From: Tunturiibacter empetritectus
Lineage (GTDB): Bacteria; Acidobacteriota; Terriglobia; Terriglobales; Acidobacteriaceae
Reading direction: 5' to 3'
Length of the DNA: 64,000 nucleotides
NCBI RefSeq assembly: GCF_013410875.1
Contig: NZ_JACCCU010000001.1
Location: 2,046,001 to 2,110,000 of the forward strand
In this document: positions 27,557-32,404 of the stretch, piece by piece
Numbering within the stretch: the stretch's first letter is position 1
Layout: every line of letters begins with the position of its first letter
Notes under the pieces: model-generated
What the model was told of the DNA's origin: nothing
Database searches by the model: none
Seen by the model: only the letters and a program-made list of their open reading frames with translations
Translations under genes and position numbers: made by a program

Positions 27557-28630
27557 CTAACTTCGAAGATCGACCATTCGCGCATCTCTCTCACCGGCAA
27601 ATACGCCCATCCCAAACTCCTCGGCCAGCAACTCATAACTCCGCAGCCGCTTCTTCTGTTCCCACACAATCGTATTCACGATCAGCTCCCCGATCCCCAA
27701 CTCCTCCGCCATCGCCTCCAGCCGCTCTCGCACCAGCGCAGGCGTTCCCACAAAGTACCGCGGCCACTCGCCCTCCTCTTGCGGCATATCGCCTAACAGG
27801 TACAACTCCCGCGCCGCTTCCTCGGGCGAAGCCACCGGCCGCCGATCCCCCTGGCGAATTCGCCGCTGCAGCAACCGCACGCTTGAAAACAGAAACTCCG
27901 CCTCCTCCTGCGTCTCTGCACAGATCACACCCACTGCCGCCGTAGCCTCCGCCGCCTTCCGGTAGATGCTCTCCGTAAACCCACGACGGTAAGTCTCAAT
28001 CGCCGCCCGCGTATTCACCGGACTGAAGAAGTGCGCAAACGAGTAAGGGAGGCCAAACTCCACCGCCGCCGCGGCGCTCCACATGCTCGACCCCAGCATC
28101 CACACATCCGGCGCTCCCGGCATCTCCGGCGAGACCCGAATCCCCGCAAAGGGATGCCCCTCCGGAAACCGGTGCCCTAGAAACGCCAGCAGCTCGCTCA
28201 CCTGGTCAGGAAAATCATCCAGCATCTTCGTCTTCCGATCACGCTTCAAAGCCAATGCCTCAATCGGCCCACCGCCCGGCGCGCGCCCAATCCCCAGATC
28301 CACTCGCCCCGGATACAGCGCATGCAGCGTCCGAAAGCACTCCGCTACCTTCAGCGGCGTGTAGTGCGGCAGCATAATTCCACCCGACCCAATCCGGATC
28401 CGCTTGGTCTCCGCACCGATCCGCGCCAGTATCACCTCCGGCGCCGTACACGCCAGCGTATCCATTGCATGGTGTTCCGACATCCAGAACCGACCATACC
28501 CCAACCCATCCACCAGCCGCGCCAGCTCAATCGAGTTCTGCAGAGCCTGTCCCGGCATGCTTCCCGCAGGCACCGGCGACTGATCCAGCACCGAAAGTCG
28601 AAGCTTTTTTTCTACGTTATCTAAAGTCAC
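27557..28630 (-). CDS. LLM-class flavin-dependent oxidoreductase
   Basis: 357-aa TIM-barrel flavin monooxygenase of the bacterial luciferase-like superfamily (MsnO8-like group), using FMNH2 or F420 and oxygen on an unknown substrate. Marks are LSVLDQSPVPAG at the N terminus, GYGRFWMSEHHAMD, RIRIGSGGIMLPHYTPLKVAE and the loop GIGRAPGGGP. The start is GTG 28630; an AGAGG sequence practically abuts it, so a GTG 13 codons on is an alternative. It is divergent from the radical-SAM gene. Confidence 0.88.
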   Translation of the reverse strand: MTLDNVEKKLRLSVLDQSPVPAGSMPGQALQNSIELARLVDGLGYGRFWMSEHHAMDTLACTAPEVILARIGAETKRIRIGSGGIMLPHYTPLKVAECFRTLHALYPGRVDLGIGRAPGGGPIEALALKRDRKTKMLDDFPDQVSELLAFLGHRFPEGHPFAGIRVSPEMPGAPDVWMLGSSMWSAAAAVEFGLPYSFAHFFSPVNTRAAIETYRRGFTESIYRKAAEATAAVGVICAETQEEAEFLFSSVRLLQRRIRQGDRRPVASPEEAARELYLLGDMPQEEGEWPRYFVGTPALVRERLEAMAEELGIGELIVNTIVWEQKKRLRSYELLAEEFGMGVFAGERDARMVDLRS

Positions 28631-28696
28631 CTCTGTTTGATGTTGAACCGCTCAAATCGAATCAACCTCTAGGAACAATATTCGCCTTTTATTCGC

Positions 28697-28702
28697 TATA
28701 AT
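28697..28702 (+). promoter_or_regulatory. Consensus -10 box (TATAAT) upstream of radical-SAM gene
   Basis: A perfect TATAAT hexamer lies about 36 bases before the radical-SAM start in the divergent spacer. No matching -35 at 17 bases. It probably drives the radical-SAM/udgX pair. Confidence 0.45.
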
Positions 28703-28738
28703 AAGGCATCAGAGAGCCTGGAGTTGCACCTAACCATC

Positions 28739-29971
28739 ATGAACGTTCAACAAAAACTCGAAATCCTCGCCGACGCTGCAAAGTACGACGCCTCGTGCGC
28801 GTCATCAGGAGCCAAGCGCAGCGGCAACGGCAAGGGTGTCGGCCACTCCGACGGCATGGGGATCTGCCACAGCTACACCCCCGACGGCCGATGCGTCTCC
28901 CTGCTCAAGATCCTGCTCACCAACTTCTGCACCTACGACTGCGTCTTCTGCGTCAACCGCATCTCCTCCGATATCCAACGCGCGCGCTTCACTCCCGACG
29001 AGGTTGTCAAACTCACGCTCGACTTTTACAAGCGCAACTACATCGAAGGTCTCTTTCTCTCCTCCGGCATCATTCAGTCCCCCGACTACACCATGGAGCA
29101 GCTCATCCAAGTCGCCAAGACCCTACGCACCGAGCATCACTTCGGCGGTTACATCCACCTGAAGGCGATTCCCGGAGCCAGCGAACGTCTCATCGAGCAG
29201 GCAGGGCTCTTCGCGGACCGACTCAGCGCGAACATTGAGCTTCCCACCCAGCAGGACCTCGTCCAACTCGCCCCGGAAAAGAAAACCACTGTCATCGAAT
29301 CCACGATGAACAAGATCGCTGTGCGCAAAGACGAGGCCGACGAAGATCGTCGCAAGCTCCCATCAACTCCGAAGTTCGCCGCCGCAGGCCAGTCCACACA
29401 GATGGTCGTAGGAGCCACGCCAGCCACCGACCGCGAGATCCTCAAGACCGCCACCCATCTCTACGGCCAGTACAAACTGCGCCGCATCTACTACACCGGC
29501 TTTAGTCCCTACCCCGATGCAGATGCTCGCCTCCCGCTGAAGCCGGCGCCTCTGATCCGGGAGCATCGCCTCTATCAATCCGACTGGCTCATGCGCTTCT
29601 ACGGCTTCACCGCAGCCGAACTCACCTCCGAAGAAGAACCCTCGCTCTCCCTCACCGAAGATCCAAAGACCACCTGGGCAAAATCCCATCCTGAGTTCTT
29701 CCCTGTCGATGTCAACGCTGCGCCGCGCGAAGTACTTCTCCGCGTCCCCGGCATCGGCTACCGCAACGTCGAGCGCATCCTCAGCATCCGTAAGTACCAT
29801 CGCCTCCTCATCGACGACCTGAAGAAACTTCACGTTCGCCTGAAGAACGCCTTACCCTATCTCATCGCTATCGACCACATTCCTCATCAGCAACCCGCCG
29901 CAGATGAGGCGCAACCTTTCACACAGCTCGATCTATTCGCACCTCTCAGCGCACTCACCGGCTCTCTTTAA
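28739..29971 (+). CDS. Putative DNA modification/repair radical SAM protein
   Basis: 410-aa radical SAM enzyme with the iron-sulfur motif CTYDCVFC (CX3CX2C, about residues 58-65), preceded by GMGICHSYTPDGRCVSLLKI. It ends in a helix-hairpin-helix DNA-binding element (APREVLLRVPGIGYRNVERI). The layout matches the family annotated as putative DNA modification/repair radical SAM protein, whose members sit next to a UdgX-type gene, as here. The reaction is unknown. The stop is 3 bases before the udgX start. Start choice: ATG 28739; a TTG at 28724 in the same frame is possible. Confidence 0.88.
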   Translation: MNVQQKLEILADAAKYDASCASSGAKRSGNGKGVGHSDGMGICHSYTPDGRCVSLLKILLTNFCTYDCVFCVNRISSDIQRARFTPDEVVKLTLDFYKRNYIEGLFLSSGIIQSPDYTMEQLIQVAKTLRTEHHFGGYIHLKAIPGASERLIEQAGLFADRLSANIELPTQQDLVQLAPEKKTTVIESTMNKIAVRKDEADEDRRKLPSTPKFAAAGQSTQMVVGATPATDREILKTATHLYGQYKLRRIYYTGFSPYPDADARLPLKPAPLIREHRLYQSDWLMRFYGFTAAELTSEEEPSLSLTEDPKTTWAKSHPEFFPVDVNAAPREVLLRVPGIGYRNVERILSIRKYHRLLIDDLKKLHVRLKNALPYLIAIDHIPHQQPAADEAQPFTQLDLFAPLSALTGSL

Positions 29972-29974
29972 AAC

Positions 29975-31564
29975 ATGAAGCGAATTCTCCTTGAACCCGA
30001 CTTCAACGCATGGCGTGAAGCAGCACGCGAAGCCCTGCACCTCGGCTATCTCCCCGAGGAACTCGAGCTGCAAGACTCGACTGTCCCCTCCACGCTGGAC
30101 CTTACCCTCGAATTGGCCGACGGTCCCACCGGCCCTCCAATTACGGCGCCGCACACCTCCAAATCCTTTCTCGAAGCTGCACAGTACGCCGCCGTCCATC
30201 GCGATCCCCAGCGCTGGAATCTCCTGTATCGCATCCTCTATCGCCTGCAGGCCAATCGCAATCTCCTTAAAGTCTCCGTCGACCCGGATATCGCCGAACT
30301 CGAACGTCTCGAATCGCAGGTCCGCCGCGACCTTCACAAGATGCACGCCTTCGTCCGCTTTCGCATGGTGCTCGAACCGGACGATCTCAACGGCCGCCCC
30401 ATCGTCGTCGACGAATCCCTCCCCACTGACCCCAATCCGCATCACCTCGTACTCGCCGTACCCACGCCCTTTGGCCTCAACCACACCGCACTTCCCCACT
30501 GCGAACCTGATCCTCACGCCACCCCCACGCCCTCCCAGCCCGACACCTGCGAACACTTCATCGCCTGGTACCAACCCGACCACCGCATCCTTCCCCTCGC
30601 TGCGCCTTTCTTTGCGGAACGCTTCGGCATCATGCGCTGGACTATTCTTACCCCCGACGCCTCCGTCTCGTGGGACCCTACCGGCAAACAACTTGCCTTC
30701 GCTCCTGGCTTGCCTCGCGAGTCTGCCCCCGCCGAAGATGAACTGGAAGATCTCTGGCGCTCCTACTACGCCAGCATCTACAACCCCGCGCGCATCAACC
30801 CGGAGATGATGCGCAGCGAGATGCCCGTTCGCTACTGGAAGAATCTTCCCGAAATTTCGCTTCTGCCCGACCTCCTCACCAAATCTCAAAGCCGAGTCTC
30901 CGACATGGTCACACGTCAACAGCAACAACCCTCGGCGCAACCTTTCGTCCCCGAAGACCACTCGCTGCCCACCCTTCGCGCCGCACTCCCGGCATGTAAA
31001 GGCTGCGAACTTTACCAGCACGCCACCCAAGTGGTTCCCGGGGTCGGAGCAGCCCGTGCCAAACTCATCCTCGTTGGCGAGCAGCCCGGCGATCAGGAAG
31101 ATCTCCAGGGTCAGCCCTTCGTTGGTCCTGCCGGCAACATATTAGATCGTGTCATGGCCGAACTCGACATCGACCGCAGCAAAGTCTACGTCACCAACGC
31201 TGTCAAACACTTCAAATTCATCCAGCGCGGCAAGTTCCGCCTTCACCAGAATCCTCGCATGTCGGAGATCACCGCCTGCCGCCCCTGGCTCCTCGCCGAG
31301 ATCGACACTATCCACCCCAACGTCGTCCTTTGTCTTGGCGCCTCAGCCTCCAAGTCCTTGCTGGGCGGAACCTTCGCCCTCATGCGCGACCACGGAAAAG
31401 TCCTCAGTACCCCCTACGCCAACCAGGTCATCGCCACCATCCACCCTAGCGCAATCCTCCGCGCCCGCGACAAAGACTCCGGCGAGCAGCTCTATCAATT
31501 TCTCCGCGACGACCTGGCGTTGGCCTGGCACACCGCACATAAGCCAGCCCTAACCTCGGTATGA
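29975..31564 (+). CDS. UdgX-family uracil-DNA binding protein fused to DUF4130-type domain
   Basis: 529 aa in two parts. The N-terminal half (about 1-270) looks like the DUF4130/TIGR03915 domain that accompanies the radical SAM enzyme. The C-terminal part (about 330-525) is a family 4-like uracil-DNA glycosylase of the UdgX type: motif A GEQPGDQ at 368-374, the R-loop KFRLHQNP with His 424, and motif B HPSAILR from His 490. In characterised mycobacterial UdgX the loop histidine forms a covalent bond with the deoxyribose after uracil excision. Its equivalent is present here, so suicidal DNA cross-linking is expected (inference). It forms a tight two-gene unit with the radical SAM gene. Confidence 0.9.
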   Translation: MKRILLEPDFNAWREAAREALHLGYLPEELELQDSTVPSTLDLTLELADGPTGPPITAPHTSKSFLEAAQYAAVHRDPQRWNLLYRILYRLQANRNLLKVSVDPDIAELERLESQVRRDLHKMHAFVRFRMVLEPDDLNGRPIVVDESLPTDPNPHHLVLAVPTPFGLNHTALPHCEPDPHATPTPSQPDTCEHFIAWYQPDHRILPLAAPFFAERFGIMRWTILTPDASVSWDPTGKQLAFAPGLPRESAPAEDELEDLWRSYYASIYNPARINPEMMRSEMPVRYWKNLPEISLLPDLLTKSQSRVSDMVTRQQQQPSAQPFVPEDHSLPTLRAALPACKGCELYQHATQVVPGVGAARAKLILVGEQPGDQEDLQGQPFVGPAGNILDRVMAELDIDRSKVYVTNAVKHFKFIQRGKFRLHQNPRMSEITACRPWLLAEIDTIHPNVVLCLGASASKSLLGGTFALMRDHGKVLSTPYANQVIATIHPSAILRARDKDSGEQLYQFLRDDLALAWHTAHKPALTSV

Positions 31565-31612: not shown

Positions 31613-32404
31613 TTGAACACGCTGTCCATCACCGATCCACTCCCCCACGGCCCAGAGCACTTTGACGCCGCAGCCTTCGCCGCACACACTCTCTCCTCCC
31701 CGCAAAACCTCGCAGCCGTCCTCGACCACACCCTGCTCAAGCCCGACGCTACCCGCACCCAGGTCCTCCAGCTCTGCAACGAGGCCGCCGAGCACCGCTT
31801 CGCCTGCGCCATGATCAACCCCACCTGGGTCTCGCTCGCCGCAGCTGCCCTGAAGGGCACCGGGATCCCTGTCGGCGTCGTCATCGGCTTCCCCCTCGGT
31901 GCCACCCTCGCCATCTCCAAGCGCGAAGAGACCGCGCACATGCTCAAACACGGCGCGCACGACATCGACATGGTCCTCAACGTCGGCCTGCTCAAATCCG
32001 CCCAGTCCGCCGACTACGAGGCCATCCGTCAGGACATCCACGGCGTCGTTGAGATCGCCCACGCCGCCGGAGCCATCGTCAAAGTCATCCTCGAAACCTG
32101 CCTCCTCACCTTCGAAGAGAAGCTCCGCGCCTCCGAGCTCGCCCTCGCCGCCGGGGCCGACTTCCTCAAGACCAGTACCGGCTTCTCTACCGGTGGCGCC
32201 ACCGCCGACGACATCAGCCTCCTCCGCGGCGTAGCCGGCACTCGCGCAGGTGTCAAAGCCTCAGGCGGAATCCGCTCCCTTGCCGACGCCACAACCATGC
32301 TTCGCGCCGGAGCCTCCCGCATAGGAGCCAGCGCCAGCGTAAAGATCGTCAACGAGCTAGCGGGGCATGCAGTCGAAGGCACTTCTGCGGCCCCTGGGTA
32401 CTAG
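31613..32404 (+). CDS. deoC: Deoxyribose-phosphate aldolase
   Basis: Cleaves 2-deoxyribose-5-phosphate to glyceraldehyde-3-phosphate and acetaldehyde in deoxynucleoside breakdown; cytoplasmic, 263 aa. The class I aldolase fold shows DHTLLKPDAT, VIGFPLG, the Schiff-base lysine K186 in FLKTSTGF and the assisting K215 in GVKASGGIR. The start is TTG 31613, fixed by AAGGAG at 31600-31605 seven bases upstream; no ATG is near. It follows udgX by 48 bases on the same strand. Confidence 0.95.
   Translation: MNTLSITDPLPHGPEHFDAAAFAAHTLSSPQNLAAVLDHTLLKPDATRTQVLQLCNEAAEHRFACAMINPTWVSLAAAALKGTGIPVGVVIGFPLGATLAISKREETAHMLKHGAHDIDMVLNVGLLKSAQSADYEAIRQDIHGVVEIAHAAGAIVKVILETCLLTFEEKLRASELALAAGADFLKTSTGFSTGGATADDISLLRGVAGTRAGVKASGGIRSLADATTMLRAGASRIGASASVKIVNELAGHAVEGTSAAPGY

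Follow-up and report, generated by a model that had tools for sequence, protein, structure and literature searches.

The bacterium Tunturiibacter empetritectus (Acidobacteriota) carries, within a 64,000-nucleotide stretch of its genome (contig NZ_JACCCU010000001.1, positions 2,046,001 to 2,110,000; the whole stretch is here called the window, and positions are those of the window), a two-gene operon in which a gene for a radical S-adenosylmethionine (SAM) protein precedes a gene for a DUF4130-UdgX fusion protein. Taken as a whole, the operon is best explained as a LexA-controlled DNA repair cassette, a reading that we consider rather probable. The radical SAM protein and DUF4130 co-occur and form the core unit, to which UdgX is an optional addition. 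The gene pair is probably a widespread system of DNA repair, with a radical part that is independent of its UdgX part. The features concerned are the following.

28739..29971, plus strand: radical SAM gene, TIGR03916 (COG4277), 410 amino acids, with its ATG at 28739 and its stop codon ending at 29971.
29975..31564, plus strand: whole DUF4130-UdgX fusion gene, 529 amino acids, with its ATG at 29975 and its stop codon ending at 31564.
29975..30862, plus strand: DUF4130 (TIGR03915) domain of the fusion, residues 1-296, placed by profile matches.
30980..31561, plus strand: UdgX domain with the cross-linking residues (His424), placed by TIGR03914, alignment and fold.
28681..28702, plus strand: putative SOS (LexA) box TTCGCCTTTTATTCGCT, a predicted LexA-binding site that overlaps a -10-like TATAAT (28697-28702).
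About 28665..31539, no strand: segment absent at the empty site of close relatives, comprising the SOS box and nearly all of both genes.

The two genes lie on the same (plus) strand, separated by 3 bases. This arrangement, first proposed in an initial annotation of the window, is confirmed by the open reading frames (ORFs) and by curated family cut-offs, with the radical SAM protein scoring 561.6 bits against TIGR03916 (rSAM_link_UDG; cut-off 343.5) and the fusion scoring 255.3 against TIGR03914 (UdgX; cut-off 189.95) and 181.8 against TIGR03915 (cut-off 112.25). The fusion also lies above the Pfam cut-offs for DUF4130 (129.2 vs. 27) and for uracil-DNA glycosylase (UDG), and the radical SAM protein lies below that of Pfam Radical_SAM (27.8 vs. 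29.5). In passing the curated cut-offs and in its gene order the operon matches the TIGR03916/TIGR03915/TIGR03914 neighbourhood of NCBIfam (the COG4277-COG1573 operon); unlike that neighbourhood elsewhere, it has an acidobacterial host, a direct-repeat box (TTCGC-N6-TTCGC) and an insert in DUF4130 at about residues 133-190.

Loci were compared for the best 80 of 587 confirmed relatives, taken from named genomes and biased to close kin, the nearest named locus being that of Edaphobacter lichenicola (94% identity in the radical SAM protein). DUF4130 follows the radical SAM gene in 79 of these 80 loci, bearing out the recurrent pairing that had been annotated, and the remaining locus ends 17 bases past the radical SAM gene. 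In one Edaphobacter relative (L003, genome G011) the spacing between the two is about 0.9 kb vs. 3 bases in the window. UdgX is present at 64 of the 79 loci, scored in frame at 61 and in another frame at three (one of these so scored only because the match runs over a stop codon), and is absent from 15. In 14 of the 15 genomes concerned no UdgX exceeds cut-off at any other place, and in one it does; ten of the 15 records are titled as metagenome-assembled genomes, and four of the five others are likewise without UdgX elsewhere. No UdgX is found at the loci of the Bacteroides, Acinetobacter, Fusobacterium and Acetoanaerobium members.

For 200 evenly drawn Pseudomonadota genomes, profile matches were scored at cut-off and the genome sets compared by hand. 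TIGR03915 and TIGR03916 exceed cut-off in the same 31 genomes, and in every one of these the two genes share contig and strand and lie no more than 0.7 kb apart. Caulobacter vibrioides, included as a control genome, matched all three families, with DUF4130 over cut-off. A third gene, deoC, stands beside the pair in 2 of the 80 named loci. UdgX is over cut-off in 29 of the 200 genomes, 23 with the pair and six without, and eight of the 31 pair-bearing genomes have no UdgX over cut-off. In one pair-bearing genome (G065) UdgX lies on a different contig, with no sign of fusion. When the presence of UdgX is mapped onto a tree of radical SAM proteins (86 rows, 84 of them labelled), it needs seven changes, with six of them forced by starred branches; several branches of the tree are long, that of the outgroup L098 among them, and long branches also lead to four distant members that have no UdgX at the locus. 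The pair has been seen in eight phyla (Acidobacteriota, Pseudomonadota, Verrucomicrobiota, Planctomycetota, Myxococcota, Bacteroidota, Fusobacteriota, and Bacillota), and within its own phylum DUF4130 is over cut-off in 4 of 149 genomes.

These distributions bear on an earlier proposal that the radical SAM and DUF4130 parts free or repair the covalent adduct of UdgX with DNA. The union of DUF4130 and UdgX in one polypeptide, the retention of His424 in all 44 aligned rows with the domain, and the presence of UdgX in 23 of the 31 pair-bearing genomes would all suit such a role. Adduct release is nevertheless not the core job of the pair, because eight of those 31 genomes have no UdgX over cut-off and six of the 29 UdgX genomes lack the pair; the 14 genomes without UdgX at the locus or elsewhere argue the same way, as does a crude comparison in which no column of the radical SAM alignment cleanly separates rows with UdgX (32) from rows without it (13). 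As a core function it is ruled out by the persistence of the pair without UdgX, and as an account of the operon we consider it quite unlikely.

The case for the LexA-controlled repair cassette is carried further by its upstream sequence. The sequence TTCGCYTTTTATTCGCT, which begins at 28681, has three exact sites in the genome, located before lexA, before this operon, and before a Y-family polymerase cassette, and recA is preceded at 13 bases by a site with one mismatch. The operon has the same box as lexA, recA, and the Y-family polymerase. With up to two mismatches there are nine sites genome-wide vs. one for a reversed control; the remaining five lie before a dTDP-sugar-epimerase-like gene, at one unresolved place, before short ORFs, before mraZ, and before a gene for a helix-turn-helix protein. 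Gene names at these sites come from a reading of the translated ORFs, except for lexA, which passed TIGR00498. At the polymerase site (L123; G000 C2 near 1190341) the exact box is followed by an ORF of about 133 amino acids and then by the polymerase, making up an acidobacterial mutagenesis cassette. The gene mraZ is often the start of a division gene cluster, and the SOS-like site about 300 bases before it (L128; G000 C2 near 237490), with two mismatches, could be due to chance.

Upstream of the radical SAM gene in Acidobacteriota, the direct repeat TTCGC-N6-TTCGC mostly runs into a TATAAT-like hexamer, and the same direct-repeat sequence stands directly upstream of lexA. The form TTCGN7TTCG precedes the radical SAM gene in 9 of 11 Acidobacteriota loci, a set that includes the window (L002) and a pair with identical upstream sequence (L007 and L014). 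Across the genus, TTCGCYTTTTATTCGCT with at most one mismatch occurs in 39 of 41 genomes, vs. three sites in all for the reversed control. Among the 30 best sites, counted one per genome, 28 lie before lexA, one before a Y-family polymerase (43% identical), and one before neither. The operon thus looks to be under SOS control through predicted LexA binding, and the DNA-damage link drawn earlier holds, with SOS-type boxes at the operon, lexA, recA, and the Y-family polymerase.

Boxes of other types accompany the pair in other phyla. An alphaproteobacterial LexA box, searched as a consensus, lies at most 250 bases upstream of the radical SAM gene in 35 of the 39 loci that have sufficient upstream sequence (15 of Bradyrhizobium), with 37 sites in 21.7 kb of upstream sequence vs. 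14 in 802 kb of mostly coding sequence elsewhere, and it is also found upstream of a Phaeobacter plasmid copy. An E. coli-type box is present in two of five betaproteobacterial and one of eight verrucomicrobial loci, and a Gram-positive-type box, at one mismatch, accompanies the Acetoanaerobium copy. The Bacteroides, Acinetobacter, and Fusobacterium copies gave no match to any box tried, and the Xanthomonas box TTAGN6TACTA is not found upstream of the radical SAM gene. A palindrome, GTCTCA-N5-TGA(G/T)AC, lies at most 250 bases upstream of that gene in 9 of 16 gammaproteobacterial loci (L026, L036, L058, L049, and L057 among them) and nowhere in the 802 kb background, although it was read off some of the same loci; it is possibly a LexA box of Xanthomonadales-type bacteria. 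One published study predicts SOS control of the COG1573-COG4277 operon in Bacteroidetes and cites the same control in Verrucomicrobia and Alphaproteobacteria (PMC8565304).

A role in anti-phage or foreign-DNA defence, by sensing uracil or modified bases, had also been suggested. The radical SAM protein is patchy in the genus, being over cut-off in 9 of the 37 genomes searched, and it matches 158 records of a plasmid collection, both of which count in favour of such a role. However, PADLOC assigns both window proteins to zero families, no neighbouring gene cluster recurs in more than two named bacterial families (from crude ORFs, over the best 25 clusters), and the box is one shared with lexA and recA. 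With SOS-type boxes in place of any PADLOC match, the suggestion loses its footing, and we hold it to be very improbable. Of the 158 plasmid records 58 are from Phaeobacter, and some records labelled as plasmids are chromosome-sized (for example, 3.66 Mb in Acinetobacter, 2.1 Mb in Fusobacterium). A phage origin was set aside; ten matches in a phage collection comprise eight unannotated faecal contigs and two Acinetobacter records of one name.

The UdgX domain retains the features of its characterized relative. Its His424, within KFRLHQNP, aligns with the His of KRRIH (His109) in Mycobacterium smegmatis UdgX, as the initial annotation had implied in naming it the covalent-link residue, and His109 is given as the cross-linking residue in PMC10359453. 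The alignment holds 59 rows, 15 of which are without the domain, and twelve checked positions (catalytic residues and likely iron-sulfur (Fe-S) ligands) are identical in all 44 rows that have it, including E369, Q370, N408, R422, H424, H490, R496, C341, C344, and C435. The hallmarks of UdgX are present as the GEQPG motif (E369 and Q370), the R-loop H424, the HPS motif H490, and the motif B arginine R496. Overall the domain is 48% identical to M. smegmatis UdgX (Z 32.3, rmsd 1.2 over 200 residues) with its catalytic residues kept, and differs from it in being fused to DUF4130, in its radical SAM partner, and in its R-loop (KFRLH vs. KRRIH). From the residues kept, the fused UdgX is predicted to be a covalent cross-linker to uracil-DNA. 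In another genome (G149; C1 5486827-5487696) UdgX adjoins what is left of a DUF4130 match, its final 50 positions interrupted by a stop codon, and that genome has no radical SAM match; the sequence looks like a former DUF4130-UdgX fusion that is decaying and losing its core.

An intact UDG domain downstream of SOS-type boxes could belong to SOS-induced uracil base-excision repair, in which the glycosylase would be the main enzyme and the radical SAM and DUF4130 parts would assist. The operon is indeed called a putative base excision repair system in the Bacteroidetes LexA paper (PMC8565304). UdgX is, however, the dispensable part of the system, it has the residues of a single-turnover cross-linker and not of a turnover enzyme (PMC10359453), and the genome of the window has two further genes of the UDG superfamily. 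We regard this alternative as improbable, if the least so of the rivals considered.

In the radical SAM protein the core CX3CX2C motif (C64/C68/C71) is invariant over 46 aligned rows, and so are three further cysteines, C20, C43, and C52 (46 of 46). These three are also kept in the Bacteroides, Acinetobacter, Fusobacterium, and Acetoanaerobium members, which are 50-52% identical, and are missing from a Gemmatirosa homologue (33% identical), which is one outgroup only. A tblastn search of the 9.1 kb locus of that homologue gave no DUF4130 match. Carried on a Gemmatirosa kalamazoonensis plasmid (L098), it has a helix-hairpin-helix-like end and is perhaps of a sister subfamily. The predicted model of the window protein (pLDDT 85.4, pTM 0.84) has a radical-SAM fold, and the best fold matches of its core are lipoyl synthase (Z 17.6), HydE (17.0), MqnE (16.7), biotin synthase (16.4), and RlmN (14.3), values within 1 of each other counting as tied, as do those of lipoyl synthase and HydE. 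Because of the three extra invariant cysteines and a core fold near lipoyl synthase, HydE, and biotin synthase, the protein probably carries an auxiliary Fe-S cluster on C20/C43/C52. As in lipoyl synthase, extra N-terminal cysteines precede the core motif, though with a different spacing. Although lipoyl synthase, biotin synthase, and HydE share the core fold (Z about 16 to 17.6), they are 9-18% identical (lipoyl synthase 9-14% in the fold search), and the window protein is set apart from them by its C-terminal helix-hairpin-helix and its DNA context. The helix-hairpin-helix noted in the initial annotation is retained in a weaker form, as a weak ComEA match (E 0.0032) and short helices in the model at about residues 318-367. 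Those columns of the alignment that best track UdgX are confounded by relatedness; at residue 65, inside the CX3CX2C motif and subject to the same confounding, 27 of 32 UdgX rows have I, V, or N, the window has T, and the 13 rows without UdgX have L, Q, or I.

In DUF4130, eleven residues are invariant in all 25 aligned sequences (R128, F129, P201, F213, R216, W261, R273, P284, Y287, W288, and E293), and R118 and H121 are kept in at least 90% of them. Pfam assigns DUF4130 to 25 of 25 sequences, along with four weak matches in one to three members, and a profile of 25 DUF4130 sequences found no sequence in the PDB at E values up to 10. DUF4130 has been described as a predicted mutagenesis-related enzyme linked to SplB-like radical SAM proteins and UDGs, the term SplB-like being that of a figure legend (PMC3765255).

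The gene deoC (31613-32404) begins 48 bases beyond the end of the fusion gene and lies near the radical SAM gene in eight of the nine genomes of the genus that have the pair, which would suit a nucleotide-salvage operon in which deoC takes up released deoxyribose phosphate. It is nonetheless present in 39 of 41 genomes of the genus, with or without the pair (vs. 9 of 37 for the radical SAM gene), and both of the named loci in which it stands beside the pair are from Acidobacteriota, some loci being short on that side. In four genomes without the cassette at the site (G032, G025, G030, and G028) the LLM gene adjoins deoC at a distance of 0.14-0.63 kb. On this evidence deoC is a neighbour only and is rejected as part of the unit, and a salvage operon is the least credible of the explanations weighed. 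One of the four genomes, G028, has a radical SAM gene on another contig. G032 and G025 match the window at 89-93% identity in the flanks and lack 28601-31539 in the BLAST comparison, where the alignment stops at 28600 and starts again at 31540; the left edge was shifted to about 28665 by eye. Because the empty site of G032 keeps about 20 bases that resemble, by eye, the last codons of the fusion gene, loss of the cassette by deletion fits better than late gain.

The LexA-controlled repair cassette would work as follows. DNA damage would lead to cleavage of LexA and production of the radical SAM-DUF4130 pair. With its helix-hairpin-helix holding it on DNA and a second Fe-S cluster at Cys20/43/52 assisting, the radical SAM protein would use a SAM-derived radical to mend or remodel a damaged nucleotide, and DUF4130 would recognise or present that nucleotide. 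UdgX, as part of the fusion, would excise uracil and stay covalently on the abasic site, where it may shield that site or hold the repair pair there while SOS polymerases work. A more specific proposal, offered tentatively and held to be possible but doubtful, is that the pair represents a second kind among the radical-SAM enzymes of DNA repair, a two-cluster, lipoyl-synthase-like enzyme acting on a damaged nucleotide in DNA, distributed over eight phyla and often SOS-controlled, to which UdgX would serve, optionally, as a covalent anchor where uracil occurs; such an enzyme possibly inserts or removes a group using its auxiliary cluster. The first kind would be spore photoproduct lyase (SplB), which PMC8565304 describes as a radical SAM DNA repair enzyme that is SOS regulated in several species and which is assigned there to COG1533, unlike the window protein (COG4277). 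Spore photoproduct lyase is not among the fold-search rows listed for the radical SAM protein, which excludes nothing.

Several observations weigh against the LexA-controlled repair cassette. The acidobacterial box was searched for with a pattern taken from the very upstream regions in question, and its excess appears only with a T-rich spacer; with a free spacer, TTCGCN6TTCGCTA is not above the reversed control genome-wide (23 vs. 28 sites at one mismatch or fewer). Four of the 39 alphaproteobacterial loci have no exact alphaproteobacterial box, none of the boxes tried was found in five planctomycete loci or the single myxococcal locus, and the 802 kb background is mostly coding sequence. The 200 Pseudomonadota genomes are not mutually independent. 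The model of the radical SAM protein has a pLDDT below 50 at residues 20-31 and 38-41, so that the second cluster is argued from the conserved cysteines by themselves, and in the fold search with the whole-fusion model the UDG domain took up the match list, so that DUF4130 was barely covered.

The family itself was already known, and other phyla were known to have it under SOS control. The present analysis separates core from add-on, supplies a putative acidobacterial SOS box, takes deoC out of the unit, and makes the case for a second cluster. In the literature searched, no paper mentions both UdgX and radical SAM, DUF4130 and COG4277 appear in one paper each, TIGR03915 and TIGR03916 are not named, and a search for an acidobacterial LexA box gave no match about Acidobacteria by title. 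A putative LexA box is now provided for the acidobacterial genus Edaphobacter. Should the pair prove to be a DNA repair enzyme, it would be one of very few radical SAM enzymes known to act on DNA. Although UdgX is used in genome methods, its natural role is described as largely unknown (PMC10359453). The place to look would be not UdgX itself but the conserved unit of radical enzyme and DUF4130, which carries SOS-type control and is also present in hosts without UdgX.

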